DNA of 64,000 nucleotides from assembly GCA_029261235.1 (NCBI GenBank), contig JAJDBS010000079.1:35954-99953 (forward strand), read 5' to 3'. Shown piece after piece: positions 16,023-48,418 of this stretch. A model generated the notes under the pieces. That model made no database searches and was not told the DNA's origin. It saw nothing but the letters and a program-made list of their open reading frames with translations. This DNA is from Nitrospirales bacterium. Its GTDB lineage: Bacteria; Nitrospirota; Nitrospiria; Nitrospirales; UBA8639. The stretch's first letter is position 1. Each line of letters starts with the position of its first letter. Made by a program: the position numbers and the translations under genes.

Positions 16023-16316
16023 TAAACGGTTCAGCAATACACGAGAATCTTCCTACTTTCCCGCCTTTTTCAGATCAACAGAAAGTTTCAGGTTCATTTA
16101 GTCCTAGAGGAAAACTTCCCTGAGGAAGAATTTGCCTACTTGTAGAGAAATGAATGAATCCTTCAGAGGCTCGATTCAATAAATACACTGCATTTTTCTT
16201 CTTGCAAAGAGGAAAGTTAATGGTCTTGAAATTGCTTGTGTAATTGTCTTGTAGATTGCTTGAACTTTCTTTCCGTTGGTCTTTCAATTCGAACCGATGA
16301 GAAATGAGTATACATT

Positions 16317-17375: not shown

Positions 17376-17381
17376 TTCATT

Positions 17382-18353: not shown

Positions 18354-18378
18354 ACGCTATAAAGTTAAGAGTACTTTT

Positions 18379-19527: not shown

Positions 19528-19557
19528 AAGAGAAAGAATAACCTTGAAGATATTTGG

Positions 19558-22303: not shown

Positions 22304-22373
22304 ATTCGGTCTGAAAAATGGGAACTCTTTGCCGATGCAATCATAGAGAGAATGTTAAGGAAAAGGTGGTCAC

Positions 22374-24212: not shown

Positions 24213-24324
24213 TTAGGGTCTGGAAATGAGATGGAGAGCCAGATCGAAGTTTGAAAGCTTAACTCATGATAGAGAAATCTGATAGCGAGAATATTTTCAG
24301 GGAATTTCCTAGGAGGACCAGCCA

Positions 24325-26042: not shown

Positions 26043-29000
26043 ATGAACGACAAGACTCTGAATCAACAGTTTTTCATCAACAAAGGAAAAAAACCAAAGA
26101 TCTTGCTTGTTCCATTGGAAGCGAATTCCTGGACCAATGCTCGGGGTCTACCTCATTCTTTAAATTTTGGGTATGTCGATGGATTAGAGGCTAATGGCGT
26201 GGAATGTCTTATGATTCCTGCCCAGCTTATGGGAGAAAAACCTATCTCTGAACTGTCGTCGACATCCTGGCTTAGGCATATTAAAACCATTTGTGCAGGA
26301 CACGAGTTTGATCAGGTTTGGTTCGAGATGGTGCATAGTTATCTCGATGATGTTTTTTTAGATTGGATCGTCACTCGAGTGCCTGTCCGTCTGGGTTGTA
26401 TGTATGAAAATTTTGAGATTTCTGAGGACGAGTATGCCCAAAATCCGGAAGGCGCAGAAAGAAGAAAGGCCAATGTCTCCAAGCATTTGCCCTATGCCAC
26501 GCATGTGATGGTTATCGATGAACATGAGGTCGAGAAAGTTCGGGCTGGTACGGGCAAACCCACCATTTGGTTTCCAAATGGAATAGCTTCACGTTTTATC
26601 TGTGATACACCATTGCCTAGTTCCAATGCTCATGCGGTCTTTTTTGGTGCGTTGTATAGTAAGCGACAAGGGTGGCTGGATCATCCTGAATTGGAAAATT
26701 TGTTTGTTCGTCCCAATACGTCTCCAGAAGTTGCTACCAAATTCCCAGAACTATTTGACGAACTTCAGATCGTGACTCAACAAAATCTTGGCATAAGAAA
26801 CGACATTGATCATCATGATCTTACTCAATATTTGAATGCCCTAAAACCCATACGAGAACAGTGTACTTCACTCTTTTTGTCTGGTCTTCAGGCTGGCTGT
26901 GCCGTGGTGAACCTTCCTCAATTTGCTAGGGTCTATGCCAGTAGAGTCGTCGAGGGAATGGCTGCCGGACGCCCAGTCATTGCGGCCGAGATTCCTGACA
27001 GTCCACGAGCAAAAGTATTATTCGAGGATGGAAAGGAAATTCTTTTGTTCCGGTCAGATGATCCTACTCAGTTGTCCCATCATATTCGTCGGATTCAACA
27101 TGATCCGGAATTTGCTCGTCGAATTGCCGCCAATGCTCAGCACAGACTTCGGTCGTGTTACACCAGTGAAATCCTGGTTGGCCAGGTTCTTCATTGGCTA
27201 GAAACGGGGCAAGTACCAATCTTCGAGGATAGAGACCGTTTACCATCACTTAGGAAAACGGTTGGAGTAAAGACGTTGAAACAACATTCTTCAAATCATC
27301 AAGATCCACCTGGAACTCACCAACATGACAAGCTCCATTGGCTATCTTTTCAGCAAGTAAAAAATAGCACTCAAGCTTTGAGTGAACCGTTTCTGCAATG
27401 GGTTCGGGATGTTGGCCATGTCGATGTGTTTATTGAGACCGGAACATTTCTTGGCGATACCGCGGAAATTGCAAGTAGGGTTTTCAGCGAAGTTCACACT
27501 ATTGAATTGAGCGATGAGATCTACCAGAAGGCCCAAAAACGTCTTGAACGATATGTGAACTGCCACGCTCATAGGGGAGACTCGCCGATCGTTTTGGAAC
27601 GCATCCTTCCCCATATTAAAGGGAATATTCTTTTTTGGCTTGATGGTCATTACAGCGGAGGAATTACCGCTAAGACCAATAAGAATACCCCGATTCTTGA
27701 TGAATTATTGGCCACCGAGAAAAGTGGTCTCACTGATCCGTTCATCCTCATTGATGATATTCGACTTTTTCAGAAGACCTCTGATCAATTTATTTCGGAA
27801 TCGTCTCTTGATGGGTACCCGACAGTCCATGAAGTTTGGATGGCCATCAAACGTTTGGGCTCCAACTACCAACTTGCCATTATTGGGGATAGTGCATTGT
27901 TCTATCCCAAACATACTGGCATTGTCGTGTCTTCTGTTGTCGAAGGCTGCACGATGAGCAGACTCTTTGACGGAGACAGTCTTGCCCTTGAAAGTGTTCT
28001 TGCAGGTGAAAATGCGATTGTTCAAGCAAGCGGGGTGGAGTTGGAGGTCATTCAACAATTACCACAAGCGTTTGCTGCAGATGAGGTCTTTGGGCTGGGA
28101 AGTCATTATCGTCTTTGGTATGGACTGACGCTCATGGGTCAGGGGGAATATTCCCAAGCAGTTGAACAATTTCAAAAAGCGATGAATCTTGGTCTTTCTC
28201 ATTGGCGAGTAGATTGGTATCTGGCCAAAGCTGCTCATGAAGCAGGCCATTCAGAGAATGCTCTATCGGCTCTTCGTCGGGTACTGGTGGTTGTGCCAGA
28301 ATTTCGTGAGGCGCAGGAATTGTCTGCTGAACTAATGCATGGAGAAAGTCGTACTCACTCTTCTATATTTGATGATGCCAAGAAGACCTTGAATGGTCAA
28401 AAAGTTTTGACGGGCCATCTAGAAGAGATTTGCCAAGCTGGAAAAGTTGCCAGTGGAGGAACCCTTCGTCTTCACCTTGGTTGCGGTCAAAATCACCTTG
28501 CAGGGTATGTCAATGTAGATTTTCCAGTCTCCGAGCATGATGTCATGACACCAAAGGCTGATCTTTTCATTGATATCTTACAGATAAAACTTCCAGAAGC
28601 GACGGTTGACGAAGTCCGTTCCCATCATATGTTTGAACATTTTTCCCGAGTTACGGCTTTGGCGCTTTTGATTCGATGGCATCAATGGTTGAAAGTCGGG
28701 GGAAGACTCAGGATAGAAACACCTGATTTTCTTGGCAGCGCCAAGACTTTTTGTAGTCAAGATTCGTGGAGAGTCAAAATGGGCCTCATACGGCATCTTG
28801 CTGGAGATCAATCCTCACATTGGGGGTATCATCTTGATGATTGGTTTCCAGAGCGGTTTGAGCATACATTCAGAAAGCTTGGGTTTGAATCGGTCGAAGT
28901 GCGGTCATGGAAGTGGGAACATGAACCTTTTCTGGCAAATGTCGACGTTGTTGGGGTTAAGACCCAGCAGATTGCATTATCAGAACTACTCCGTCGCGCT

Positions 29001-30098
29001 GACGAGCTATTATGGGAAAGTACTGTTTCAGACGATGAACGTCCAACCTATGAAGTTTGGAGGAAACAACTTCGAGATATCGTATCGGGGAGATTGGAGC
29101 CAACATCGAGTCAACTATCTTCAATGGGTAAGGAAGTAGAACATTCAAACTCATCACTCACTCTTCTCCTGCCGAACGCACTATTAGAAAAAACTGCCGG
29201 AATTCCTTTGGCTGATATTCACGGATTCAATCAAGCGGAACGCGATGCATGGATTCAATCAAAAGCTAAAACCATACAAGCTGGTGCAAGCGTGTTGGAT
29301 GTCGGAGCAGGAACTTGCCCTTACCGTGATTTCTTTTCCCATTGTGACTACAAAACACATGATTTTAAACAATATGAAGGGGTGAAGCTGGGAAACACCA
29401 CACAATACGGACAGATTGATTATATGTCTGACATTGTTGCCCTCCCGGTTCCAGACCATTCGTTCGATGTGGTGATGTGTAGTGAAGTCTTGGAACATGT
29501 CCCAGAACCGATTAAGGCTCTGCAAGAGATGGCTCGGATTCTCAAACCCGAAGGCCGTCTCTTTCTTACGGCGCCATTGGGATCAGGGTTACATCAGTTA
29601 CCTTTTCATTATTACGGAGGCTATACCCCTGAGTGGTATAAACACTTTGGTAAGCAATTTCATCTTCATGTAGCTGAAATTGTGCCCAATGGAAGATTTT
29701 TTAAGCTATTGGCACAGGAATGTGCTCGCGTAGCCTGGACATTTGATCAACATCAACATCTTCATGGAGAGCATGCTTCAACTATTCATCAATTGTTCAA
29801 TGAGTGGCTTCCTCGTTATCTTTCCTGGATGGATAATGAATGTCCTAATGACCAATTTACCGTCGGCTACCATGTCGAAATGATAAAGAAGCATGATTCT
29901 GTACAGCCTGCCACAGAACAAGTCGATCTCTTAGAGTACACCCGCCGAAATCATCGAAACCCTTCTACATTTGTGTCTTTAGCTCACAATGAATTCAAGG
30001 GAGGCAACCCTCGACGAGCGAAACGGTATGTAAAAGCCGCTCTGGCCTTAGAGCCGGATCATTTGGAAGCGAAAAACCTCATGGAGATTCTTTCTTGA
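26043..30098 (+). CDS. Multidomain glycosyltransferase with three SAM-methyltransferase-like domains and TPR
   Basis: GT region ARVYASRVVEGMAAGRPVIAAEIPDSPRAKVLFEDGKEI; VDVFIETGTFLGDTAEIAS; LHLGCGQNHLAGYVNVDFP; VLDVGAGTCPYRDFF...VVMCSEVLEHVPEPIKALQEMARILKPEGRLF; TPR-like helices. Confidence 0.82.
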   Translation: MNDKTLNQQFFINKGKKPKILLVPLEANSWTNARGLPHSLNFGYVDGLEANGVECLMIPAQLMGEKPISELSSTSWLRHIKTICAGHEFDQVWFEMVHSYLDDVFLDWIVTRVPVRLGCMYENFEISEDEYAQNPEGAERRKANVSKHLPYATHVMVIDEHEVEKVRAGTGKPTIWFPNGIASRFICDTPLPSSNAHAVFFGALYSKRQGWLDHPELENLFVRPNTSPEVATKFPELFDELQIVTQQNLGIRNDIDHHDLTQYLNALKPIREQCTSLFLSGLQAGCAVVNLPQFARVYASRVVEGMAAGRPVIAAEIPDSPRAKVLFEDGKEILLFRSDDPTQLSHHIRRIQHDPEFARRIAANAQHRLRSCYTSEILVGQVLHWLETGQVPIFEDRDRLPSLRKTVGVKTLKQHSSNHQDPPGTHQHDKLHWLSFQQVKNSTQALSEPFLQWVRDVGHVDVFIETGTFLGDTAEIASRVFSEVHTIELSDEIYQKAQKRLERYVNCHAHRGDSPIVLERILPHIKGNILFWLDGHYSGGITAKTNKNTPILDELLATEKSGLTDPFILIDDIRLFQKTSDQFISESSLDGYPTVHEVWMAIKRLGSNYQLAIIGDSALFYPKHTGIVVSSVVEGCTMSRLFDGDSLALESVLAGENAIVQASGVELEVIQQLPQAFAADEVFGLGSHYRLWYGLTLMGQGEYSQAVEQFQKAMNLGLSHWRVDWYLAKAAHEAGHSENALSALRRVLVVVPEFREAQELSAELMHGESRTHSSIFDDAKKTLNGQKVLTGHLEEICQAGKVASGGTLRLHLGCGQNHLAGYVNVDFPVSEHDVMTPKADLFIDILQIKLPEATVDEVRSHHMFEHFSRVTALALLIRWHQWLKVGGRLRIETPDFLGSAKTFCSQDSWRVKMGLIRHLAGDQSSHWGYHLDDWFPERFEHTFRKLGFESVEVRSWKWEHEPFLANVDVVGVKTQQIALSELLRRADELLWESTVSDDERPTYEVWRKQLRDIVSGRLEPTSSQLSSMGKEVEHSNSSLTLLLPNALLEKTAGIPLADIHGFNQAERDAWIQSKAKTIQAGASVLDVGAGTCPYRDFFSHCDYKTHDFKQYEGVKLGNTTQYGQIDYMSDIVALPVPDHSFDVVMCSEVLEHVPEPIKALQEMARILKPEGRLFLTAPLGSGLHQLPFHYYGGYTPEWYKHFGKQFHLHVAEIVPNGRFFKLLAQECARVAWTFDQHQHLHGEHASTIHQLFNEWLPRYLSWMDNECPNDQFTVGYHVEMIKKHDSVQPATEQVDLLEYTRRNHRNPSTFVSLAHNEFKGGNPRRAKRYVKAALALEPDHLEAKNLMEILS

Positions 30099-30137: not shown

Positions 30138-32246
30138 ATGCCCACCCAATTCTCATTCAATCGTCCCGGTGATATGAATTTTCCGACGGAGTCGCCAGAG
30201 TTTTTTTGGACTACCGTTTTTGTTATCACCATTGGTGATGCCACCTTTCCAGACTGTCAAGAAGCGGTGCGTTCTCAGGACACACAGAAATTTATTTTGA
30301 ATATTGTCAGAAATATTCATCCTATGAGTGCCGCGTTCCAAGAAATGATTCGGAGATGTGCAACTGAATATTTCATTCAAGTTGATGAAGACATGCTTTT
30401 GAAGCCGACAGCAGTCCGAGAGATGGAGTTAATGATGAGGCAGGCTCCGGAAAACGTTGGAATGATCTGTTTTCATCTTTTTGATGTTGATCGTAATATA
30501 AAGATTCAAGGAGTGAAAATTTATCGAACTGCAGCAATGAAAACCTTGAGATTTAAAGATGTGAAGGCCTGTGAAATGGATTTATTGGAGCAAATGGCCA
30601 ATAAGGGAATACGATGGATTTTACATCCTACAATTCAAGGACGTCACGGAACCGAATATTCTCCAGAGACGATCTATCGGCGTTATAAGAGTATGTATGA
30701 AAAAGATATTCGGGAATGGAATGACGTGACCGAAGATATTCGTCAAAAAGCGACGCAATTCCGTGAAACAGGAGACTCTCTGGCACTTTTTGCCTTGATG
30801 GGTGCAGTCGATGGAATTGTGAGTGCCCCTTACGCAGAAGATCATGAGAAGGATTTCACGCGATATGATTTGAAATCCTTGGAAGTGTTACGCCGGATAT
30901 TTTTAGAAACACATTCTTTTCCACTGTCTTATGAACAGGGACGTGATGTCAAACGCCTGTCTTTAAATCTGCCCATTCCAGTAGAACAAGTCAGATGGAC
31001 CGGTGTTGAACATTCTTTTTCTCCAAAATCAAAAAATGAAGAAAAAAACGAATTGAAGATCACAACGGAGACTCTTCACGCGCCATCAATGAAGAAGAAA
31101 CGGATTCTCTTAGCTTGCAACTATTTTTGGCCCTCGGTCGGAGGGGTGGAGACGGTCGTGGCCAACTTAGGTTGTGAGTTAGGGAAGCAGGGATATCAAG
31201 TCGATGTCGCTACGGCTGCTTTGGCGAACCGGACTCGTCCGGAATATCACGGTATGCACATTATTTCTATGGATGTGCAGACGACTCGAAAATGAGGTTC
31301 GAACAGCTATCCCTCTCTGTGTTGGGAGTTTTATCAATTATTGGCTTCTGGGGAGTATGGTGCCTGTGTCTTATTCGGAAATCCAGAGAATTGGTTGATG
31401 GTGGGCTTGTTACTAGGAGATATTTCTCCTCGAACAAAATTATTTATTCAATTACTTGTGAATAATGAAAGCTTTGAAAGATGGGGGCATGATCTTTCGA
31501 TCTGTGATCGGGTGACTAAAATTTTACAAAAAGCCGATGGGGCTTTGGCGTTAACCCAACAAGGAATTGATGCTGGATTTATGAACAAAGCCGGGCTATC
31601 GCCGCTCTATTTTTCCAATGCGACAACTCCGGCAGTCCAGAATATGAATTTTCGGGAGACGTATGGTATTCACCGAGAGGCTTTTTTGATTGTTCATGTT
31701 GCGAATATCTGGAAAGTGAAAAACCATCTTGGCCTCATTCGCACGTTTTCAGCCATACCTCCTAATTGGAAATTGGTGTTGATCGGAATGCCATATGATA
31801 AAGGTGAGCCAGAGGAAACGGAACATGGAAAGCAAGTTGCTGAAGCTTTGCAAGGCCGTCCAGAAATTCTCTATATTCCAGGATTACCCAGCAAGGACAT
31901 TGCTGCGGCAATACAAACGGCAAATATGATCGTACTGGCCTCTCATTCTGAAATTTCTCCGATGGTCATTGTTGAGGCGATGAGCTATGGAACGCCATGG
32001 GTCGCAACACCAGAATGTGGTGATGTGGCTGAAAAAGCTGGAGGCATTGTGGCGCCCTTGAATGTATTTCCCACTATTTTGCAGATTCTTTGTCAGCATA
32101 CCGACCTCTGTGAGTCATTGGGGATGTTGGGTTATGCGCATTGGGAGGCGTGTTTTAGTTGGGATGTGGTGGGAAAGTGGTGGGTCGAGCTGGTGGAACA
32201 GGGACGTCCTTCTTCTACCTTTGACATGCCCGCAAGAAATCATTGA
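30138..32246 (+). pseudogene. GT-A (GT2-like) plus GT4-like fusion interrupted by an in-frame TGA at 31293-31295
   Basis: ORFs 30138-31295 and 31341-32246 share one frame, open on both sides of a single TGA; N-term RRCATEYFIQVDEDMLL; GT4 start RILLACNYFWPSVGGVETVVANLGCELGKQGYQVDVAT; GT4 end IVLASHSEISPMVIVEAMSYGTPWVATPECGDVAE. Confidence 0.75.
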
Positions 32247-32702
32247 ACAAATGAATACACTCCAGACTCGGCTCAATGAAATCTTAGAATGCACTGACTC
32301 CTTATCTTCTGATGGGCAATCGATTCATTTTCAAGGACCGACCCACCAGGACTCCTCTCTTTCTCCCCGGACTTCTCTTCCTCCTTCTCGTGTCATTGGG
32401 TGTTAGCCTGATTCCGGCTGGGCTTGCCTGTCTTTTCTCAGAATCTTGATCATTCTCTGGCCATTCCCACTTTTTGGGATTCTTCTTTGCATACAGTTGA
32501 TGAAGGAGGGAGACAAAACCTGTGGTTCAAGATTCCTGCTTTCTTCTGCAGCTGTTTTTTGACAGAAAAATCTATCGATCCTCAAAAGGATGGGAAGGCC
32601 GATGCTGTGATTGATCTTGGAACAATTTTCCATGAGGCACTATTTGCCTAGAAGTCTTGCTTCTTGGCCCTATTATATGAGGCTTCCAGAGGAGGTTTGA
32701 CC

Positions 32703-35700
32703 GTGGAAGGAATCAACTCAATTAATGGAGAGGCACATTCAATGAACTGTCTAGTGTTGGTATTTAGTCGAAATCGCGCTATGCAATTGGACGCGACCCT
32801 ACGATCCTTCCTCCTCCATTGCCAAGATATTTCAACCTGTCAAATTCGTGTACTCTATACGACAACGGATACGAGGCATACTGAACAATATCAATGTCTC
32901 AAACAAGACTATGCCGAGTATCCCACCATTCAGTTTGTTCGAGAGCAAGATTTCCGCAGTGATGTGCTGGCTCTTCTGGCTTTATTTGACCATGTGTTAT
33001 TTCTTGTGGATGACAATATTTTCATCAGAAATTTCATTCTTCATGAAGGAATTTCCGTCTTATCCATGAAATCAAAGGTTCTGGGTGTATCATTGCGATT
33101 AGGTCGAAACACTACCTATTGTTATCCATTGGATAGCCCACAAACTTTACCATCCTTTTCAAACATATCTCCAGGCAACTCAGAGTTGTTGGGGTTTCGT
33201 TGGGTAGATGCCCAGCATGATTTTAGCTATCCATTAGAAGTTTCTAGTTCCTTGTATCGAACTGACGATCTCTATGATCTAATGTCTACGCTATCCTTTT
33301 CCAATCCTAATGCTCTTGAAGGCCAATTAGCTGAGCAAAAAGAACAGTTCATTCTCTCCACTCCAGACCTCGCTTGTTACGGACATTCGGTGACTTTCTG
33401 TAATCCGCTGAATATGGTCCAGACGGTGTGTCTCAATCGGGCAGCAACTGACCCGCAAGTGACTTCAGAGGGTTTAGCCGAAAAATTTCAGTTGGGCCAT
33501 CGTGTTGACGTGGAATCTTATGTAAATTTTACGCCTCAGTCCGCTCACCAGGAAGTCGATTTACACCTCACGTCTGTTCTTCATGGAAGCTCAGATGTTC
33601 AGCGATCAACCTCACCAGTCGTGGTGTCGGTTGTGATCCCTTGTTTCAACCAAGGTGAGTTTCTTTCAGAGGCTGTTGGTAGTGTTGTGGAGCAATCCTA
33701 TCAAGATTGGGAAATCATTATTGTGGATGATGGGAGTTCCGATTCCACGGCCCATGTTGCGGAGCAACTGAAAAAAGAATTTTCGGACAAAAATATCCAC
33801 CTACTTCAGCAAGTGAATCAAGGGTTAGCTTCTGCCAGGAATTCAGGTATTCGCATGGCGAAAGGTCGATATATTCTTCCTTTAGATGCTGATGATTGCT
33901 TGCACTCTGAGATGCTGGGAAAAACAGTACGTCTTCTTGAGGAGGATCCTTCTACGGCTATTGCCTATACAGATACAGTGACCTTTGGTTTACGAGAAGA
34001 AGTTTGGCTGACTGGGGGTCTTGTCCTCGAAGAAGAATGCGAAAGAAACTGTATTTGTTATTGCTCGCTCTTTCGTCGAGACATGTGGGCGGTGGTGGGT
34101 GGCTATAACCCCAATATGATTTGGGGATATGAAGACTGGGATTTTTGGATTTCGTGTTTAGAGAAAGGGTATTCCGGCAAACGTGTTCCCGAAGCTCTCT
34201 TTCGGTATCGCCTTCGTGAGGGCACCATGTATTCCCGAGCCTTACAACATGATGTGAAATTAAAAGCGCAGATTGTTGCCAATCATTTGCAACTTTATAA
34301 TGAGGCTACACAGGAATGGGCCGTTGATTTGTTAAATCAACATGGTCGATCACAAGCTTCCATGTCACAGGAACTCACTGAAAAGGCAGGAACTCTTTCT
34401 CTGACACCACAGACTCAAGTTTCCACTTACCCTATGCACAGCAACTCAAAAGAGTCTTTTGGAAGTGACGAAGCTCTTCCATTAGTCTCCGTTATTGTTC
34501 CTACCTATAACCGCGCAGAACGACTTCGGGAAACATTGACCAGTATTCTTGGGCAGACCTATGTTCAGTACGAAGTCATTGTGGTCAACGATGGAGGGGA
34601 AGATGTCGGAGATTTGGTTGCATCTTTCAATGACAAAAATAACGTTCATTATGTGAGGCATGCAAGCAATCGCGGTTTAGCAGCTGCGCGAAATAGTGGG
34701 TTAGGAGTGGCTCGCGGGAAATACATTGCTTACTTAGATGATGATGACCGTTTTTTACCGAAACATTTAGAGGTATTGGTCTCATTCTTGGAACAGAGCC
34801 AGTCTCAGATTGCATATACAGACGCATGGAGAATAGTTCAGAGTAAAGAAGAGGGAGAGTATACTGAAACGGGGCGAAGTGTGCCTTATTCTCACGATTT
34901 CGATCCTGATAAGTTGCTAATTACAAATTACTTTCCAGTTCTTTGTCTGATGCACGAAAAGGTATGTTTGGAGAAAACGGGAGGTTTTGATGAGATTTTA
35001 ACGACCCATGAAGATTGGGATTTATGGATTCGTCTGTCGCGGCATTTTGCTTTCGTTCATTTAAAAGAAGTTACCGCCGAATTTACTTGGAGGATAGATG
35101 GCAGTTCCATGACCAGTCGCATTTCTGAAGATTTCTTACGCACCCAAAAAATGATTTATAAGAAATATGATGAATATTTCTGTATTCAACCACATCTTAT
35201 TCCCGCAAGAGATCAAGCGGTACGTGATTTAGAAGCCAGAGAGAAGTCCCATCATATTGTCTGTTCCATCATTATTCCTGTCTTTAATAAAAAAGAGTTG
35301 ACGGAACAGTGCCTGCTGAATCTTGTTCAAGTCACGACTGAAATTTGTTACGAAGTCGTGATTGTAGATAATCACTCAACCGATGGCACGAGTGAATTTT
35401 TAGCTATGCTTGGTGGGGATGTTCACATCATTCGAAATGCAGAAAATCGCGGGTTTGCTAAGGCCTGTAATCAGGGAGGGCGTGTCGCAAGAGGTAAATA
35501 TTTAGTGTTTCTCAATAATGACACGATTCCTCAAGTGGGGTGGTTGGAGGCCTTGTTAGAAGAAGTAAATACTCATGCGGATGTTGCGGTGGTTGGGAGC
35601 AAATTACTATTCCCTGATAATACGATTCAACATGCTGGGATTGTATTTAATCGAACCAAAGGGCTCCCTTATCAATGGGGACGAGGTCATACCTCTTCTC

Positions 35701-38700
35701 CGATGTTCAATCATCGAAGGGAATTCCAAGCGGTAACCGCAGCATGTATGTTGGTGAGGCGCGAGAGCTTTGAGTCCGTAGATGGATTTGATGAACGATA
35801 TGTCAATGGATATGAAGATGTAGACTTATGTTTGAAAATTAAGGAACGTGGTGAAAAAGTCATCTATCAACCCAAAAGTTGTTTGTATCACTTAGAAGGA
35901 AAGTCTGAAGGCAGACAAGACCGTATGTCAGAAAATACAGAGTACTTTCTGAGCCGATGGGGCAAGGTGTGGTTAGAAGATGAAGATATTGTGTTTGATG
36001 AAGAACGAAATTTCATGACATTACATGCTCAACAGAACGATGGAGCGTTCCTTTTGGGAGACATGGGGAAAAACACAGAACATTCTCAAAGACAGGTCGT
36101 TGTAGAGGTTCAGAAACAGTTACTTGGGCATGTGAAGGGGCCTTTTCCTCAGAACGCTTCCATGGTGGCTCTTGCACAGAAGTTAGCTGAATATGAGCGT
36201 TGGCCCAGTGACTCTGGAGTCTTAACCTGGGGTGGCGCGGTGTGTCATTCCTTAGGTTTGTATGACCATGGTTTAGGATTTATTCAAAGAGCATTGAAAT
36301 TAGCAGATGAACCATTAATTCGACTTCTCTATGCGCAAGTCGCTATCAAAGCGGGGCGTTTAGTGGAAGCTCAGGAACAGCTCACGTCGCTCAAGCGCTC
36401 CAATTCATTTGGGAAGGATGCGTGTTTGGCTCAGGGAGTATTGTTTCTACAATTGAACGATTACGTGGAAGCCAAAGCTATCTTTCAATTGGTTTTGGCT
36501 GAGGATAGCACGCATATCAAAGCCCGTCTTGGCTTAGGTATGGCAGAAATGGGTGAAGGGAATGGAGCATCTGCTTTCAACAGTTTTCAAGCAGTTTTAA
36601 GCCAATGCCCTGATCATCGCGAAGCTATTGATTTACTTCTTCAGGCCGGAACTCAATTGAACGATTGGGTGAAATTATGTTCCGAACTCGAAAAATTCCA
36701 TAATCGAAATCCTAGTGATTGTGACATTCGATTTGCGTTGGCAAGTGTATATCTGAGGATGGGGTTAGTTGAAAAGGCAAAGTCCCACTACGAAACCCTA
36801 CAATTATGCGCTAAGGATTATGTTGGTCTCGATGACCTTGCCGCCAGCTTGTCCCGGTGTTCAATCATAGATTGCAGGAGCGAAGAACAACAATCTGCGG
36901 ATGATCAGAAATTACAAGACACTCAGCGACAAGACAAAATGAAGGGTCCGGGAAAGGAGAAATTAGAACGTGAGCAATTGGGCCAGAAAGCAGCGTCTTG
37001 CTCGTTTGAAAGTTCTGAAACTTCTCGGTTGTTGGTGAATTCTAGTCCTGTAGGGGTTTCCAATGCCATATATCCAGTGAAAGACCGAGTCTCGGTTATT
37101 GCGAATGATGTTTATGGTGCAGGGGTCCGCCTCTATAGTCCTTTGCGATCGTTAATGGAAAAGGAACAATTGATAGGCCGGATGTTTCTTGAAGTGGACA
37201 TGAATGAAAATACGGGTGAGTTGCCCATTGGTGCGAATGAAACCCTTGTTGTACAGCGAATCGCTAAACATATTGAGCCAAGATTGAAAGCGATGAAATC
37301 GCAAGGAATAAGAATCGTTCATGATTTCGATGATTTATTATGGAAGCTTCCGCAGGAAAACATCAATTATCAAATCATTACCTCTTCCATGTTGGATAGT
37401 TTCTTTCGAATCATGGGAGAAGCGGATTGTGTCACGGTTTCCACGGAACCTCTTCAAGAGGCTTTGGACGCACTGAACATAAAATCCATGGTCCTTCCGA
37501 ATTGTTTGTTTGGTGAGCATTGGAGCGATTTGAAACCCCATAGACGTACAGGACGGCGTCCTCGTGTTGGGTGGGCGGGGCAGGTGGGAGTTCATCAGGA
37601 GGATGTTGCCATTCTGCTTCCTTTGATCGAAATGTTAGGGCAGGAAGTGGAGTGGGTATTTTTAGGCGAAATACCTAAAGTCCAATCTGGTGTTCGTTTT
37701 GAGGCTGAGACCTATGGGATGGTGTCTGCACAAGACTTTCCGGCCAAGTTGGCCAGCTTGAACTTAGATTTGGCGCTGGCCCCTTTGGCTTTGAATGAAT
37801 TTAATGAAGCCAAAAGTGATTTGAGAGTTCTGCAGTATGGCATTTTAGGCTATCCAGTGGTGGGAACGGATATTTTTCCTTATCAATCAGCTCCACTAAC
37901 CAGAGTTCCCAATGATCCTACGTCGTGGGCTCGAGCGATTCGTGATCACATTAATAATCCAGATGCTTCAGCAGCACAGGGAGAAAAACTAAGGCAGTGG
38001 GTGCTGTCCCATAGAATGTTTGATCAATGGGCTTCTCGCTATCAAGAAGCGTGGCTTGGAGAGCCGAGCAAGCAAGTAGGGATGTTTGAATCTGAGTGTA
38101 TTCCACGTGTTTCTCTACCAGAATTTGAACTGGATAATGCAGGAGGGAAGGTGGCCTATATTTGTTCTATCATCATCCCCGTCTTTAACAAGGTAGACCT
38201 TACCTGTCAGTGCTTGACCCACTTAGCCAAGGTGACAGATGGGTGTTCCTATGAAGTGATTATTGTTGACAATGCATCAACAGATGGTACCGGGCCATTC
38301 CTCTCATCCTTAGAGGGCGATATTCAAATTATCACGAACGAATCTAATTTGGGTTTTGCCAAGGCCTGTAATCAGGGGGCAAAAGCTGCTAATGGGAAAT
38401 ATTTGGTGTTTTTAAATAATGACACCATTCCGCAAGAAGGATGGTTGAGCCCGTTGGTTGAGGAGGTCGAGCGAAATGCTGATGTTGCCGTTGTCGGGAG
38501 CAAATTGATTTTTCCAGATCATACGATTCAACATGCAGGTGTGGTTTTTCCTCGGAAAGTTTTCATGCCGTATCATATATTTAATGGGGCAGCAGAAAAT
38601 TTTCCTGCTGTCAACGTTCGTAGAGAATTCCAAGCGGTGACTGCGGCATGCATGTTAGTGAAACGAGAGTCTTTTGAGGCTGTTGGGGGATTTGATGAAG

Positions 38701-41700
38701 GATTTATTAATGGGTTTGAAGATGTAGATTTCTGTTTGAAAATTCGCGAAGGTGGTGAAAGAGTTGTCTACCAGCCCAAAAGCATACTGTTTCATCTTGC
38801 GCAACAAACTCCGGGTCGAAAAAATAAGGATAATGAGGAAAAGAATTGTCGAAGATTGAGGGAACGGTGGGAAGGGAAGGTCACTCCAGATGAAGATATG
38901 TATTACGTTTCAGAAGGATATAAACGTAGGATTTATGTGGAAAATGGAATATTGCGGGTGACCGTGACTCCTTTTGTTGATGAAAGAGAGAAGACACAAT
39001 GGCACAATTTAGAACACGTTCAAAGATTATTACTGCAAAATCAGTACACGAAAGAGAATGGATCTTCTTCGGAATATGAAGCAAAATTGCGCCCTCTCCT
39101 TTCCCATGCCTCTGAGTGGCCTAAAGATGTGGAAGCTCTCAGATGGGCTGCATTCATTTGCCATAAACATGAATTCCATGAAAATGAAAAAGATTTTTGG
39201 AATCAGATACTTGAGTTGGAGGATGATGCTGAAGCGCGTGGATATTTCGTTTCCTCTGCTCTGAAGCAGAATAACTTTTCCGACGCAAGGCAACACCTTC
39301 AAACTCTTCTCGTATCTCATCCTAAGCATGGAAATGGTCATTTTTTACAAGGAGTCTTATTTCTACGACTCACACAATATGTGCCCGCATCTGAATCGTT
39401 CCGTCTGGCTGTTGAATTAGGCTTTGATCATCTGAAGGCGGAAAAAGGGCTAGGCATGGCTTATTTGGGCATGGGGAATGCTGATGAATCATGGAGAGTC
39501 TACGACAAGGTCTTAGCGTATTGTCCTGATGATGTTGAAGTGATTAATGGATTACTCCAGGCTGGAACAGCTCTAGAACGCTGGGAGGAATTGGCGAATA
39601 TTCTATCTCACTATCTTGAACGTAATCCTCAAAACCTTGATATATGTTTTGCCTTGGCAAGCGTGGCCTATCGGGCGGGACAGTTAGGTCAGGCCAAGCA
39701 GCAGTTGGCTTTCTTGAAACTCATGAAACCAGCTTATGATGGACTATTCGACCTGGAGCGTCTTTTGTCCCAAACACCTTCGGTGAACTCTGTTGAAGCC
39801 ATCTTAACAAACTATCGTTGTGACGAGACCACCAAGGTGTGGAGGCGCTCGGGGTATCCTGGAATTGCGTATTCTGACGGCGACGAAATTGAGGGACGAT
39901 TAAAGCGCATTGTCGAAACCTCTAGCGATGTCAGCGTGATGTCGACTGAATTGGCAAGTCATTGCTGTGATTGGGCGACGCACTATCATCTATCCCGCCA
40001 ACGTGCGAATCTTTTACGTCCATTTGAATCTCAGTTGCAGGGAAAACTGATTCTTGAAATTGGTGCAGGGTGTGGTGCCATCACACGGTATCTGGGTGAG
40101 ATCGGAGCCGAAGTGCTGGCTCTGGAGGGTAGCCCCCGTCGTGCTTCCATTGCTGCCCTGCGTTGCCGAGAGCAAGCGAATGTGACGGTCGTTGCTGAGG
40201 CCATTCATGAATTTCAAAGAGTTCCCCAATTTGATGTCGTTACGCTCATTGGAGTCTTGGAATATGCCAGAAAGTTTTTCCCTGGTGAGGGAAGAGATCC
40301 TGTTGATGCCATGTTGAAATATGTCACGGGATTTTTGAAGCCTGGTGGAAGGTTGATCATTGCAATAGAAAATCAATTGGGTTTGAAATACTTTGCAGGT
40401 TTTCCGGAAGACCACATGGGCCAGCCCATGTTTGGAATTGAAGAACATTACGATGTCAGTAATGTTGTGACATTTGGACGGAAAGATCTCGGTGACCGCG
40501 TACGGGAGGCTGGACTCACCGAGAGTCAGTGGTGGTACCCATTTCCGGATTATAAGCTCCCAAGCCTTATGGTCTCCGAACAGGGTGCTGTACCTACTGA
40601 TGATATGGATCTGTTTTCACTTGTGCGACATGCCTGTTCTGAAGACCGACAATATCCTTCGAGCGTGAGCTTTAACCAAGGGAGAGCCTGGCGTCCAATT
40701 ATGCGCAATGGGCTTCTTCGCGAAATGTCGAATTCCTTTGTATTCGTCGCGTCTGATACTGAAATTCCTGTGCTGCCAGATAAGCCTTTGGCGTTGCACT
40801 ACGCCACGAATCGACGCTCGGAATTCGCCAAGAAAGTGCTTTTTTCACGGACGCAAGATGGTGAGGCGATGACCCATCAGATTGCACTATACCCTCAAGC
40901 CGTGCCAGATAAAAATTCGATGGTGAAACTGCGTCTTGAGCAAGCAGCTTTCATTCAAGGCCAGCTTTGGCAGGATCGTCTTGTCGATATTATGACCACA
41001 CCTGGGTGGACTGTTGATCACATCCAACAATGGTTCCAGGTTTGGCTTAAGGCCTTTTACTCTGCTGCCGGTTTGCAGAGTCATACTCATGTAATGTATG
41101 AAAAAATTCCTGGTACGTATGTTGACATGACTCCAAGAAATTTAATTATTGATCACGACGGAATAGGAAAGTTTTTTGATCAAGAATGGGAATATCTTGA
41201 GGCGATCCAGGTGGGGCTTGTGGTCTTTCGGGCACTCTTGACATCTATCGGGTACATGAAAAATGTTTGCTCTCCGTTAGAGCAATCAATCAGTCCGTCG
41301 TTGCAACTTGTGATGAAAATTGCCGAAAACGCTGGTTTCTCTTTTTCGACCCAAGACCTCAAAGAGTATATGGCATTCGAACGTGCTTTCCAGAAATGTA
41401 TTGAAGGGAGAGAACGCTTACACGATACGGGTTTGCATTCATCACAGGAGAATGAACGAGGGGTCGTTCAGCCGAAGGAGAGTCCGGCAACCCATCCCTC
41501 CGCCCCATCTGAGTTTGACTGTTCTATTATTATTCCAGTTTGTAACAGAATTGACCTCACAAGTCAGTGTTTGACGCACCTAGCCCAAGTGACACATGGG
41601 TGTTCGTACGAGGTTGTTGTTGTGGACAATGGATCTACAGATGAGACCAAAGAATTCTTGGCATCTTTGGGTGGAGATATTCGAATAATCACGAATGAAA

Positions 41701-43154
41701 GCAACCTTGGGTTTGCTAAGGCCTGTAATCAAGGTGCGTATGTCGCTCAAGGCCAATTTTTGGTGTTCTTAAATAATGATACGATCCCAAAGTCAGGCTG
41801 GCTAGCTCCCTTGGTTGGCGAGGTTCGCTCTCATGATGATGTGTCGATCGTTGGGAGTAAATTGTTATATCCCGACAATACAATTCAGCATGCTGGTGTC
41901 GTGTTTGATCGAAATTTTCAGAATCCCTATCATCTGTTTGGCGGTGTTTCAGAGAATTGTCCAGGGGTGAATATCCGTCGAGCGTTTCAAGCTGTGACGG
42001 CTGCATGTATGTTAGTCCGAAGAGAGGTATTTGAAGAGGTCGGTGGGTTTGATGAAGGGTTTGTAAATGGGTTTGAAGATGTCGATCTGTGTTTAAAAAT
42101 TCGTCAATTGGGGAAGAAAATTATCTACCAACCTCAAAGTTGTTTATATCATCTGGAAAGTCAAACGCCAGGAAGAAAAAAATATAATGAGACTAATTTG
42201 AAGCGGTTTTTAGATCGTTGGGGGAACCAGTGGCTGAATGATGAAGATTTGGTTACCTATCAAAACGGGTATATTCACCAATACTGCTTTGAGAATGAGA
42301 ACATAGAAGCTAAGTTGATCCCTACACATAAGGTTATAGATTTGGTGAGATGGAAGCGAACTGGGGATTTGCAACAACTTTTGTTAGGGCAAAAATTTCA
42401 GCCCTTGGAGAAGATGGTTGACAATCACAAGATTTGTGAACTGCTGGCTGATGTTGAATCATGGCCGAGTGACATTTCAATTTTGGACTGGGTCGGACGA
42501 GTCTGTGACACTCTGCAGTGCGAATCACTTGCCATACAATATTGGGAAAAATCACTCACACTTGGCGATCATCAGAAGGCAAGATTGGGGTTGGCCCGCG
42601 TTCATCTTAAGAACGGAAATACTCAAGCTGCACAAAATCATTTGGGTGTTTTAATACGTAAGTTTACGCCTGATGCCGAAGGGTGGTTATTGCAAGGAAT
42701 TCTTTCCATTCAGCAGAACAAATATTCCGAGGCTAAATGGGCTTGTGCGCAATCCTTCGCTCTAGATTCGGGGAATATTAATGCTCGATTGGGTTTAGGC
42801 ATGGCATGTATGGGGCTTGCTCAAACGACCGAAGCTTGGAATACTTTTCAGCAAGTGGTGGCCATTGATCCTGATCATGCAGAAGCTATTCGTAGTTTGA
42901 TTCAAGCGGGTACGGCCTTAAAGCGATGGCATGCTTTAGCAGAGCACTTAAGCCGATTTGTTGAACGGAATCCTACTGATTGCGATATCCGGTTTGCGTT
43001 GGCCGGAGTATTATTCCGAGCAGGAAGTCCTGACAAGGCTAAGGAGCATCTCACGTGCTTGCGTCTTGTTAAGCCAGATTATGAGGGTATAGAAGATTTA
43101 GAAAGGGTCTTGGTCACCCCGCAGTCCGAAAGCAATTTAGTTTCCGTTCGTTAG
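32703..43154 (+). CDS. Giant modular glycosyltransferase (five GT2 domains, GT-B-like domain, methyltransferase, kinase-like segment, TPR blocks)
   Basis: ORF 32664-43154; GTG at 32703 preceded by AGAGGAGG at 7 nt. GT2 signatures [28 protein letters not shown] (x2), [29 protein letters not shown]. Confidence 0.9.
   Translation: [3483 protein letters not shown]
35262..36870 (+). repeat. Internal GT2-TPR module A of the giant GT
   Basis: [18 protein letters not shown]...[30 protein letters not shown]...[17 protein letters not shown] plus [22 protein letters not shown]. Confidence 0.85.
38163..39774 (+). repeat. Internal GT2-TPR module B
   Basis: [43 protein letters not shown]...[30 protein letters not shown] plus TPR [16 protein letters not shown]. 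Confidence 0.85.
41520..43120 (+). repeat. Internal GT2-TPR module C
   Basis: [43 protein letters not shown]...[30 protein letters not shown] plus TPR [16 protein letters not shown]. Confidence 0.85.
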
Positions 43155-43184: not shown

Positions 43185-44435
43185 ATGTCTCGATCTCTCC
43201 TCTTACAGTTAGCGCGTTTGGGTGATCTCATCCAATCCCTCCCAGTTATTCATTCTCTACGTACAGATTTCCCAGAACGTCAGTTGGATCTCTTGTGTGC
43301 GGCTCCGTTGGTCTCACTCGGGAGGTTTTTCTCAGGTATTGATAGGGTTTATCCTTGGGATGGGGAACGATGGCGTTCCTTTTCAACTCTGGCAGGGAAA
43401 GATGAAAAGGATCTCGTTGAGGCGGCAGAACACTACCTGACAGATTTTGCTTTCGATTCGTATCCCTTGGCCTATAACTTGAATAATCATCCTCGAAGTA
43501 TTCTGGCGGCGCATTTGTTCGGTGAGCGGGTGATCGGTTCAGGCGATCTCGGACCGTTGAATTCGAGTCGTCCCCCATGGGTGGACTACCTGCACCAAGT
43601 GGCTTGTGAGCGAGGGGACAACCGTATTCATTTGGCCGATGCTTTTTGTGGAATCTGTGGCGTAATGCCTCCGGCGCTGACGCCAATTCTTGAACCTCCT
43701 GATTTAGAATTACCAGGGGATATCACTCAAATAATCAACGATTCATCCTTGATCAAGATTGGCATTGTGCTTGGGGCTGGAGACGCCGATCGTCGTGTGC
43801 CAGTGGCGACCTGGAAACGGTTAATTGAAGGATGCGCTGAACATCTTCCTAATAGTGTGTGTGTGCTTATTGGGGGGGCAGGTGAACGAGAAATCGGGAT
43901 GGCCGTAGAAAATCAGCTTTCGACAATCTATTTGTCACGAATACTCAATTGCGTGGGGAGGACTACTTTGCCACAACTGGCGAATGTGCTTCATCGATGT
44001 CAGTGGGTCGTTGGTTCAGATACTGGTCCCTTGCACTTAGGGGTAGCCTGTGGTGCACGGGCGATTGGCTGGTATTTTTCTCGAGCTCGCGTGCATGAAA
44101 CGGGTCCTTATGGGGTAGGGCATTATGTGTGGCAGTACCGGGGGACTCCATCGACCGCCAGTATAAATGGTGCTTACGACAAAGAGTACCTTCACGTTCC
44201 ATCAACTTGGCCGGTGTTGGAAACGCTTGAACTCATGCAAGATCAAGATGGTGGCACAGGCTTATTGGAATGGGAATTATGGAATAGTAAACGGGATAAA
44301 TGGGGAATGTTTTATACGAGTGGGGAGGCTTCAGAAGTTGGTATCACGCAGAGAGAGGAGGCTTGGAGTCAATTGTCTCATTGTTTGTCCAATCATCAAG
44401 TGGTTTCTAATAGCCATGCCAAGATAGCAGGTTAG
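43185..44435 (+). CDS. Glycosyltransferase family 9 (heptosyltransferase-like)
   Basis: LLLQLARLGDLIQSLPVIHSLRTDFPERQLDLLC; WVVGSDTGPLHLGVACGARAIGWYFSRARVHETGPYG. Confidence 0.9.
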   Translation: MSRSLLLQLARLGDLIQSLPVIHSLRTDFPERQLDLLCAAPLVSLGRFFSGIDRVYPWDGERWRSFSTLAGKDEKDLVEAAEHYLTDFAFDSYPLAYNLNNHPRSILAAHLFGERVIGSGDLGPLNSSRPPWVDYLHQVACERGDNRIHLADAFCGICGVMPPALTPILEPPDLELPGDITQIINDSSLIKIGIVLGAGDADRRVPVATWKRLIEGCAEHLPNSVCVLIGGAGEREIGMAVENQLSTIYLSRILNCVGRTTLPQLANVLHRCQWVVGSDTGPLHLGVACGARAIGWYFSRARVHETGPYGVGHYVWQYRGTPSTASINGAYDKEYLHVPSTWPVLETLELMQDQDGGTGLLEWELWNSKRDKWGMFYTSGEASEVGITQREEAWSQLSHCLSNHQVVSNSHAKIAG

Positions 44436-44440
44436 CAACT

Positions 44441-46258
44441 ATGAATATATTTCAACGCAATCTAGAAATCCTGCGACAGCACGATCCGGCATTAGCCGCG
44501 AAAATAGCTGAAACCTCTGGGGGAGTGTTAAGGATTCAAAGCGCTAAATCCGGTGTTCCTACGGCGATGCACAAGAACCGAGACATTCATAGTGCCTATG
44601 ATCCTCTGCGTGAAGCGGAGCGATGGGCTGATCATCAAATAGGAAATTGTCAATCTGGGGAAACGTTGATCGTGTTGGGTCTGGGCTTGTTCTATCATGT
44701 AGAAGCCTTGCTCGCGAAGTTGCCACAGGACTCGATCATTATCGTTGTTGTGCCTAATCTATCAGAACTGGTTGATGGGTTGGCCGTGCGGTCTTTGGAT
44801 GGGTGGGGGGAACGAGTGTGTTGGGTGTGGGGTCAACCGGAGTCTCTCGCCTCACAGGTAGCTCGCCAGGCGAAACGCATTCGGCTCTTAACGTATGAAC
44901 CGGCTTTAATGATTCATCAGGCAGAGTATGAGACTTTTCGTTCCCGTCTACGTGATCAATTGGCCAAAGGAGTCAGTGGGCGGTTGCATATTATGGTGGT
45001 CGGTCCGATTTATGGAGGTTCCCTCCCCATCGCCGGTTATATGGTGCGAGCGTTAGAAGCATTAGGGCACCGCGTGAGCTGGGTCGATCATAGTTTGCAT
45101 GCCCCGGGGTTTCAGAATTTGAATGCCATACAAGATAGCCGACTTCGAATGACGGTGCAGCAGCGTTTTAGCGATACGTTAGGGGTCATTACCCTGGCCC
45201 ATGTCGCCGAAGATCCGCCGGATTTGGTGTTAGCGATGTCACAGGCTCCCTTGTCCATGGCGGTGTTGGAACAAATGCGTCGTAAAAAAGTGATAACGGC
45301 CATGTGGTTTGTGGAAAATTTTCGTCATTTAACCTATTGGCAACAAATGATTGAAGGCTATGATTTTTGGTTTGTGATGCAACAAGCCTCTTGTATGGAA
45401 GCCTTTAAAAACGCGGGGGCTTCTCACGTGTCCTATTTGCCACTGGCTGCAGATCCGACTCTTCATCAACCCATTACATTAACATGTGATGATCAATTGG
45501 AGCTCGGAGCAGATGTTTCGTTTCTGGGTGCTGGCTATCGTAATCGACGGGAGATTCTCCCAGTGTTGTTGGGGAAGGAGTGGACTTTTAAGTTGTGGGG
45601 TAATGAATGGGATAGGGCAGGGGCGTTGGCATTGGTCCTTCAACGAAATGGTGCTCGCATCGATACGCAAACCAGCGTGAAAATCTTCAATGCCACATCA
45701 GTCAATGTGAATCTTCATTCCTACACAGGAAGCGGTTTTGATCCTGATGGTGATGGTGTCAACCCTCGAACCTTTGAATTAGCCAGCTGTGGGGCTTTTC
45801 AAGTTATTGATCATCGTTCCTTATTACCTGAAATCTTTGATGACTCCATGATGGCCGTTGTACGGAATCCTGATGAATTGCTTCCAGTTGTCAGAACGTA
45901 CCTCCATGAACCAGAGCTGCGGAAAATTATGGCAGAGAAGTCCAGGCAACGTGTGGTTCACTCGCATACCTATGTTCATCGGATGCAGACCATGTTAAGT
46001 ACAATGGGTCTCGCTTGTCCCGACCGTATTGGAGCGATCCTTCAAGGTGATCGCCAAGCCGAAGCCTTATTGACACGTAGCCAGGATTGCCCTGAATTGC
46101 AGACCCTCTTAAAAACTTTTCCTAAAACTGATCGAGTAGAGCTCGTGGATTTGGCAAATGCTATTCGCCAGAAAAACCCTGAGACCAAGTTGAGGCGTGA
46201 AGAGTTGTTGATTCTCATGATGGATGAATATCGTCAGGAAACACGCGATTTTATATGA
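44441..46258 (+). CDS. Fusion of Maf/DUF115-like N-terminal region with a CgeB-like glycosyltransferase
   Basis: N-term FQRNLEILRQHDPALAAKI...HSAYDPLREAERWADHQ...LIVLGLGLFYHVEALL; C-term DVSFLGAGYRNRREILPVLL...DPDGDGVNPRTFELASCGAFQVIDHR. Confidence 0.72.
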   Translation: MNIFQRNLEILRQHDPALAAKIAETSGGVLRIQSAKSGVPTAMHKNRDIHSAYDPLREAERWADHQIGNCQSGETLIVLGLGLFYHVEALLAKLPQDSIIIVVVPNLSELVDGLAVRSLDGWGERVCWVWGQPESLASQVARQAKRIRLLTYEPALMIHQAEYETFRSRLRDQLAKGVSGRLHIMVVGPIYGGSLPIAGYMVRALEALGHRVSWVDHSLHAPGFQNLNAIQDSRLRMTVQQRFSDTLGVITLAHVAEDPPDLVLAMSQAPLSMAVLEQMRRKKVITAMWFVENFRHLTYWQQMIEGYDFWFVMQQASCMEAFKNAGASHVSYLPLAADPTLHQPITLTCDDQLELGADVSFLGAGYRNRREILPVLLGKEWTFKLWGNEWDRAGALALVLQRNGARIDTQTSVKIFNATSVNVNLHSYTGSGFDPDGDGVNPRTFELASCGAFQVIDHRSLLPEIFDDSMMAVVRNPDELLPVVRTYLHEPELRKIMAEKSRQRVVHSHTYVHRMQTMLSTMGLACPDRIGAILQGDRQAEALLTRSQDCPELQTLLKTFPKTDRVELVDLANAIRQKNPETKLRREELLILMMDEYRQETRDFI

Positions 46259-47907
46259 AGCAGGTCTTAATCATAAACATCACGCGAATGGGGGATCTGA
46301 TTCAGATGATCCCTTTGCTGAGTCGCTTAGAAGAAGAATGGCCTGGGGTGAAGATTGATTTGATTATCGATAAAGAATTTGCCTGTGTGGCCTCACTCCT
46401 TCCAAGTATTCGACACGTGTTGGCTTACGATTTTCAAGAATTAATGGATGATAGTCGAGTGTGTGCACGGGATGTGGTGACGCTATATCACGATCTTGCG
46501 AATTGGGCTAAACCGTTGCTTCACGTGGGATATGACCGAGTTGTGAATTTAACTTTTAATCGACGTAGCGCATTTCTCGTGAAATATTTTGGTTGTGCTG
46601 ATGAACGGGGGATGACCACAACAGATGATGGTAGTTTTCTCGTTAAAAATTCCTGGATGAAATATTTCATAGATTTACACGCATACCGACAGATGAATCG
46701 TTTCAATATTGCCGATCTGTATTCACTCGGAGGAAGTGGCCCTGGACGTTATCATCCGATCCGTCTCATGGTGGCGAAAGCCGAACAGGACTGGGCCAGA
46801 GGATTTCTTCTGGATTCTGGTGCTCCCAAAGTATGGGTGGCGGTACAAGTTGGGGCAAGTGATCCCATGAAAGCCTGGCGTCCTGAATATTTTGGCCAGG
46901 TGATGGCTCATCTTAGTAAGGGGCGAACTATCGGCTTTGTGTTGATTGGCACGAAAAAAGAAGAACCGGCGGTGAAAGAGGCGGTGCAAGCGTACCAACA
47001 AGCCGGAGGGCAGGGGATTTTGTGCGAAGCGGTCGGAAGAACCTCAATCCCCGAACTCATTGCATTGTTGCAACAATGTCAATTGATGGTGACGAATGAT
47101 ACAGGTCCTATGCATATGGCTGTGGGGGTGGACACTCCGGTTCTGAATGTGTCGGTCGGACATGTGGATTTTTGGGAGACAGGCCCCTTTGGGCCGGGGC
47201 ATTGGGTGGTGCAACCTGACATTGTGTGTGGGCCTTGTGGTTTCGATAAAATTTGTCCGCATCATGCTTGTAAAGATCAGATTATTCCTCAAGAGATGAG
47301 CGAATTATGCCTTCATATCTTGGAGAGAGGGTCATGGCCAAATTTCGCCTCAAAAATTAGAATCTATGAAGGCGCAATAGATGGAGATCAATTAGGTTCG
47401 TTTGTACTGCGAGCTGGCTATGGGCCAAATCGCACAACCTGGTATGGCGCATATTGGCGCCGCTATTGGTATGAACTTTTTACGGGGCTGAATAGTCAAA
47501 TTCCTCCAATATCGTCTTCGCCTCCTCATGCCCTTGAGGATCTGCATTTGTGGGAAGAGGTGGCTCCACGCATTGATGTTTTGTGCCAACAGACAAAACA
47601 AATGGTTCACCTCTGTCATCAACAGCCGATACCTGTTGCGCAATTAAAAGCCATTCAAAATTTCGTAAAATATGAAAGCTTGGCCCTAAAAGAAATCACG
47701 AGATTTTCTTTGGCTTTTGGCCCTCTGGTGGGGGCTTGTATTCGTGAGACGTTCAACCTTGAAGGTCAGACCTTAGGTAGTATGGCTGAGGAATACACGA
47801 TGGCGTTTCATACTGTGCGATCAAGAGCTCAGAATACCTTTGAGCATCTCACTCAATACTCACCTGAACCTTCAAGGAGGGATCTCTATGTTGGTGCAAT
47901 TGGATGA
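46255..47907 (+). CDS. Glycosyltransferase family 9 (heptosyltransferase-like) with C-terminal helical extension
   Basis: VLIINITRMGDLIQMIPLLSRLEEEWPGVKIDLI; MVTNDTGPMHMAVGVDTPVLNVSVGHVDFWETGPFGPGH; ATGA overlap with the upstream stop. Confidence 0.9.
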   Translation: MKQVLIINITRMGDLIQMIPLLSRLEEEWPGVKIDLIIDKEFACVASLLPSIRHVLAYDFQELMDDSRVCARDVVTLYHDLANWAKPLLHVGYDRVVNLTFNRRSAFLVKYFGCADERGMTTTDDGSFLVKNSWMKYFIDLHAYRQMNRFNIADLYSLGGSGPGRYHPIRLMVAKAEQDWARGFLLDSGAPKVWVAVQVGASDPMKAWRPEYFGQVMAHLSKGRTIGFVLIGTKKEEPAVKEAVQAYQQAGGQGILCEAVGRTSIPELIALLQQCQLMVTNDTGPMHMAVGVDTPVLNVSVGHVDFWETGPFGPGHWVVQPDIVCGPCGFDKICPHHACKDQIIPQEMSELCLHILERGSWPNFASKIRIYEGAIDGDQLGSFVLRAGYGPNRTTWYGAYWRRYWYELFTGLNSQIPPISSSPPHALEDLHLWEEVAPRIDVLCQQTKQMVHLCHQQPIPVAQLKAIQNFVKYESLALKEITRFSLAFGPLVGACIRETFNLEGQTLGSMAEEYTMAFHTVRSRAQNTFEHLTQYSPEPSRRDLYVGAIG

Positions 47908-48418
47908 AAAAACCTGGGAAGTGAGCGATACGGATTGCTTAGAGGACGTCTTGGCGGATTTAAGTGATCGGGCGCAAGTCGAAGGACGAATGGTCACCCA
48001 GCTTGTTGTAGGCGATCAGCGCATGACTGATCGGGAGTTGGTTCCCCTTACATTGACTAAGGTTGCGAGCACGTTTGGAAGTATTTCAGCTAAAAGTGAA
48101 CGAATGGATAGTATTCTCCAAAATTCAGGACAAACGGCCAAGAAGTTTGGATGCCAACTTCGTATGACTGCTCAACAGTTAGTTGAAGCTTTTCGCCAGG
48201 GGAAAAAGGGGATGCGGCAACTGGATCAATGGTTTGGTCAAATAGCCGATTATTTGGAATGGATCCAGAATCAGCAAGCGGTCCGTGGAGCGCTACCAAA
48301 GGAATCCCAAGATCTTTCCCATTGGGTCAATGAATTAATGAATGCGCGAAAAAACTTAGACGAAGTCCGGGTGACCGATATGTTGGAGTATGAGGTCATC
48401 CCTCGCTTGCCCAACTGA
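47888..48418 (+). CDS. Hypothetical protein between GT9 and fliC
   Basis: ATG at 47888 with AAGGAGG just upstream, in frame with ORF 47840-48418; no family recognised. Confidence 0.7.
   Translation: MLVQLDEKTWEVSDTDCLEDVLADLSDRAQVEGRMVTQLVVGDQRMTDRELVPLTLTKVASTFGSISAKSERMDSILQNSGQTAKKFGCQLRMTAQQLVEAFRQGKKGMRQLDQWFGQIADYLEWIQNQQAVRGALPKESQDLSHWVNELMNARKNLDEVRVTDMLEYEVIPRLPN

Follow-up and report, generated by a model that had tools for sequence, protein, structure and literature searches.

Nitrospirales include globally important nitrite oxidisers, and a literature search found no paper describing flagellar glycosylation in this order. The window examined here (the whole stretch of 64,000 nucleotides from a Nitrospirales bacterium) raises the question of why a flagellin gene should lie downstream of a single reading frame packed with glycosyltransferase and TPR domains, and what the giant product might do. 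The reading favoured here, to which we assign a probability of about 70%, is that of a predicted cytoplasmic multi-enzyme flagellin O-glycosyltransferase, which would build a decorated glycan on a short flagellin held by the TPRs.

The original prediction of one unbroken frame of ~10.5 kb holds throughout its length, with zero N and zero internal stops (Table 1). Translation likely starts at one of two codons. GTG 32703 would give 3483 aa and has a good Shine-Dalgarno sequence (AGGAGG) 7 nt upstream; ATG 32742 is the point at which the relatives' homologues of the first domain begin. An assembly chimera had been named as one way in which the prediction could fail. The joining of three paralogues by an error of assembly or binning would be in keeping with a source MAG of 264 contigs (82.8% complete, 3.8% contaminated) and with the exact three-unit order being found in no other genome. 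All domain junctions nevertheless recur in at least one other assembly: D0-GTa-GTb-GT2 in L017, TPR to GT-B in L031 and L032 (with a unit 1 of the same 100/100 clade as the window's), TPR to methyltransferase in L016 and L017, and kinase-like to GT2 in L016, L017 and L031. DNA identity among the three repeats is also only about 66-72%. The frame is not an obvious chimera, and such an origin is considered extremely improbable.

Table 1. Features of the giant reading frame and its surroundings (positions in the window).
Feature	Position	Strand	Remarks
Sugar-nucleotide and modification genes	14342-25968	+	epimerases, HddC/HddA-like, aminotransferases, B12 radical SAM, TPP enzyme
Upstream GT-methyltransferase-TPR protein	26043-30098	+	1351 aa
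GT-A + GT4 gene	30138-32246	+	one in-frame stop at 31293-31295; counterpart fused onto GT2-TPR in L034, L036, L046, L053, L054
Giant modular glycosyltransferase ORF	32664-43154	+	3496 codons from first TTG; probable start GTG 32703 or ATG 32742
D0, N-terminal domain	32742-33599 (residues 27-312)	+	GT-A-like by eye; VDDN motif; conserved in L017, L037
GTa, GT2 domain	33615-34283	+	DADD + GYEDWD; chondroitin-synthase-like
GTb, GT2 domain	34476-35153	+	DDDD + EDWD
GTc, GT2 of unit 1	35262-35993	+	LNND + GYEDVD
TPR domain, unit 1	36108-36893	+	
GT-B-like domain	37041-38078	+	motif (19 protein letters) conserved in 10 aligned sequences
GTd, GT2 of unit 2	38160-38873	+	
TPR domain, unit 2	39006-39788	+	
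SAM methyltransferase domain	39951-40583	+	LEIGAGCG
Kinase-like domain	40584-41393	+	D-x4-N-x12-D loop (DMTPRN...FFDQEW); loop spacing
GTe, GT2 of unit 3	41517-42233	+	
TPR domain, unit 3	42366-43133	+	about 7 hairpins; prediction, pLDDT about 90
GT9a	43185-44435	+	GT9-family, heptosyltransferase-like
CgeB/DUF3880-type glycosyltransferase	44441-46258	+	
GT9b	46255-47907	+	GT9-family
Short flagellin	48665-49504	+	279 aa; proposed acceptor

From the N-terminus, the domain order is D0 - GTa - GTb - GT2 - TPR, then GT-B-like - GT2 - TPR, then methyltransferase - kinase-like - GT2 - TPR. Applied to the whole protein, Pfam finds five Glycos_transf_2 stretches (2.7e-156), TPRs (TPR_19, 2.5e-32) and a methyltransferase (1.5e-10), all of them as first proposed; the three GT2-TPR units begin exactly where predicted, at 35262, 38163 and 41520 (residues 867, 1834 and 2953). 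The GT2 domains of these units share 61-69% mutual identity and their TPRs 33-42%; GTa and GTb are distinct GT2s (22-31% identity). Metal-site and acidic E-D-x-D motifs are retained in all five GT2s, with LNND and G[YF]EDVD in each of GTc, GTd and GTe, and a motif table with its listed exceptions gives metal-site and ED motifs in 42 of 42 related units.

Two domains named in the original prediction are less secure. The GT-B-like segment scores only 0.032 in the Pfam segment scan, below the cut-off, but its motif is conserved, and the assignment leans more on that motif than on Pfam. The putative kinase is proposed solely from the spacing of its catalytic loop, which is kept in 8/8 aligned sequences and is close to the D-x4-N-x11-D of same-order APH-family sequences; the segment has no match in Pfam or the PDB (PDB kinases included), nor to APH kinases by hhalign profile comparison with a shallow alignment. 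D0 likewise has no Pfam or PDB match, and its assignment as a GT2 was rejected, the hhalign alignment to GTb being collinear but not significant.

With shallow alignments, AlphaFold confidently predicts a solenoid of about seven TPR hairpins, which resembles designed TPRs and the TPR of OGT. When unit 3 is modelled with the methyltransferase-kinase region, the TPR alone is confident. For GT2-TPR alone the mean pLDDT is 69 and the GT2 half is too uncertain to place, so that the model does not show how the TPR lies relative to the active site. Conservation is stronger in helix A than in helix B in 6/6 TPR hairpins.

The neighbouring genes provide the genetic context. In relatives, the downstream order GT2-TPR, GT9a, CgeB-like, GT9b, fliC is kept: 32/35 loci have GT9a as their first matched gene downstream, and fliC lies inside the fetched downstream DNA at 26/35, most of the others stopping at a contig or fetch end. 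One locus, L050, is a second, non-flagellar-type locus. Between GT9b and flagellin, positions 47840-48418 encode a protein without a Pfam match. Upstream, the HddA/HddC-like genes score below curated NCBIfam cut-offs, so that GDP-heptose is only a lead as the donor and its pathway was not accepted as certain. The in-frame stop in the GT-A/GT4 gene reflects either a pseudogene or a MAG error; the relative L038:4211-7699 reads through.

Other Nitrospirales loci encode permuted and differently split versions of the giant protein. L017 is without the GT-B module; L016 has both GT-B and methyltransferase-kinase modules; in L031 methyltransferase-kinase precedes GT-B, and in L020-L023 it does so immediately. 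Five loci (Table 1) have a single GT2-TPR with an added fusion partner, the counterpart of the GT-A/GT4 gene that stands apart in the window. Relatives seen entire end with GT2-TPR, or about 450 residues later (L016); L018 (16840-18270) has an extra C-terminal region past its last TPR, by eye apparently a second methyltransferase. In a sample of the phylum, matches spanning GT2 and TPR are limited to the order Nitrospirales, the remaining matches being GT2 only. L042:6227-10396 encodes a methyltransferase-kinase-GT2 protein in which no TPR was matched; it is not at the flagellin locus of its genome but some 7 kb from HddA/HddC-like genes, which suggests that the same parts serve another glycan.

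The units of the window have not been copied recently from one another, because the tree places them in three separate clades common to other genomes: units 1 and 2 each group with units from elsewhere in a three-row clade (100/100), and unit 3 belongs to a further supported clade, also with other genomes. Recent tandem duplication was accordingly rejected, and the three units belong to three old lineages. It is proposed that the GT2-TPR stays conserved while the modules around it are swapped, fused and split, and that lineages alter their glycan in this way.

The distribution of the unit follows flagellin length. Among 198 Nitrospirales genomes, 116 have a GT2-TPR unit, 13 have a long flagellin without the unit, and 63 have neither. 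A short (~280-aa) flagellin occurs in 113 of the 116, the other three being without a strong flagellin match, whereas the unit occurs in 0/13 long-flagellin genomes (open frames of 612-787 aa; Fisher p = 3e-14 for short/long flagellin against GT2-TPR presence, which overstates independence, given the relatedness of the genomes). Both states occur within genus g19 and also within genus g12. A Maf homologue is found in 12/13 long-flagellin genomes, and the sole overlap of Maf with GT2-TPR (G316) is on a fragment at a contig end; all four Maf proteins scanned by Pfam carry C-terminal TPRs. The Maf system appears to replace the GT2-TPR system in long-flagellin Nitrospirales. Nine fetched long-flagellin loci (L061-L069) have a longer FliD (777-828 aa vs about 465) and no GT9a/CgeB/GT9b match; most have a TPR-bearing Maf-type protein near fliC. 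Three g5 genomes (G025, G032, G035) have a short flagellin without the GT2 core. Two of them, G025 and G032, have the same TPR family in the same neighbourhood, fused to other GT domains that replace this core (L057:2866-7209, L059:1764-5999).

The analysis establishes which domains are present, that their motifs are intact, that modules are shuffled, and how the genes are ordered and co-occur; the TPR-flagellin contact, the sugars, the order of reactions and the capping are inferred. The core unit would be GT2-TPR, in which the TPR solenoid probably grips flagellin before export. Using donors that the upstream genes supply, the GT2s of the units would attach sugars, as would the remaining GT2s and the GT-B domain. 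The glycan is probably modified or capped by the methyltransferase and the kinase-like domain. GT9a, the CgeB-like enzyme and GT9b would extend it, and the short flagellin would then be exported. Flagellin, originally named as a possible acceptor, is now the likely one, given the conserved gene order, the co-occurrence with short flagellin and the near-exclusion with Maf. Docking on the TPRs is proposed because of the FlmG and Maf-1 precedents, by analogy with which the solenoid may bind flagellin, and because of the stronger conservation of the groove-side helices, which is in its support.

The TPRs could instead be scaffolds that gather the transferases and the neighbouring GT9/CgeB enzymes, with flagellin still the acceptor but recognised elsewhere. 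A TPR does follow every GT2 core unit, several per protein, the neighbouring 1351-aa protein also has TPRs, and the TPR of GmaR makes an internal contact with its antirepressor domain (PMC9638930). However, FlmG and Maf-1 are precedents for TPR-flagellin binding, and a TPR persists with short flagellin even when other domains have taken the place of the GT2 core; the scaffold role is judged unlikely. We give still less credence to synthesis of a cell-surface polysaccharide (O-antigen or capsule) with an accidental location in the flagellar region. The GT9 neighbours are LPS-heptosyltransferase-like, and methyltransferase and kinase-like domains followed by GT2 resemble the Klebsiella pneumoniae O7 chain terminator with its two GT2 modules (PMC11231755); yet the position before fliC is fixed across two families, and the short-flagellin association and near-exclusion with Maf also argue against this role.

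For the flagellin O-glycosyltransferase, the original prediction had several transferases acting in sequence on one TPR-held acceptor. Several complete transferases in one chain are supported; a strict sequential hand-off is not, as relatives permute or split the modules and no carrier is identified. No carrier family occurs among the segment matches (from a scan that did not take two TPR regions separately) or among the best 25 of 37 families in the whole-protein table. A PKS-like assembly line is therefore unproven: neither a covalent carrier among these matches nor the colinear module order of a PKS/NRPS-like system was found, and domains that one species has fused are encoded separately in another. 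A bolder, tentative extension, which we hold to be rather unlikely, has every GT2-TPR unit take hold of the same flagellin independently of the others. One polypeptide would then modify several sites or add successive sugars, and module exchange would rewrite the glycan code of a lineage on a fixed short flagellin, the glycan replacing the outer domains of long flagellins.

Shuffled modules wherever flagellin is short suggest a mix-and-match machine for sugar-coating the flagellum. Nitrospirales offer a natural experiment, in which each of two flagellin lengths goes with its own flagellin-glycosylation system. The set of shuffled modules could reveal the relation between domain order and glycan structure, and also whether the outer domains of flagellin are replaced by glycans.

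Among known systems, FlmG of Caulobacter crescentus (PMC7591256) is a cytoplasmic-pathway flagellin glycosyltransferase whose TPR binds flagellin, but it has 596 aa, one GT-B domain and an N-terminal TPR, and uses pseudaminic acid. GmaR of Listeria (PMC9638930) has a GT2 followed by a TPR and adds GlcNAc to flagellin; it differs in its 637 aa, one GT domain, and linker and antirepressor domains. Its comparison with the giant protein gives only a generic weak GT2 match (GTa, 3.3e-6 or better), and here there are five GT2s, with each assigned TPR preceding another module or the end. Maf-1/Maf-TPR, as reported in PMC13317340, is a flagellin transferase encoded near fliC, with C-terminal TPRs that confer flagellin specificity, but it is a single transferase with a Maf/MptE-like catalytic domain. 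That domain (PF01973) is absent from the scanned segments of the giant protein, a Maf search was empty in G000, and relatedness between the TPRs of GT2-TPR and Maf-TPR was not detectable in a pairwise test. That source also places Clostridium GT2-TPR proteins, predicted flagellin transferases, near flagellin genes, and its available part describes no multi-module fusion.

K. pneumoniae O7 ORF6 and WbdD/WbdA combine several GT2 modules with a methyltransferase-kinase in one chain or complex, but they serve O-antigen synthesis with a coiled-coil ruler and are not flagellar; the available part of PMC11231755 describes no TPR for O7 ORF6. There, an unannotated domain after the O7 methyltransferase proved to be a kinase, which makes this terminator the nearest precedent, as an analogy and not as demonstrated homology, for the methyltransferase and kinase-like segment. 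To OGT only the TPR fold is similar, with no GT41 match by segment. Successive sugars on flagellin have a parallel in Pseudomonas syringae, in which the transferases fgt1/fgt2 act on a flagellin carrying a trisaccharide (PMC3927599). The giant protein has the features of the broad class of TPR-coupled flagellin glycosyltransferases, namely GT domains with intact motifs, a same-chain TPR and a genetic link to flagellin, and it is on these features that sugar transfer to flagellin is predicted. Such enzymes are already known from FlmG, GmaR and Maf-1; what is notable here is the module shuffling and the alternation with Maf according to flagellin length.
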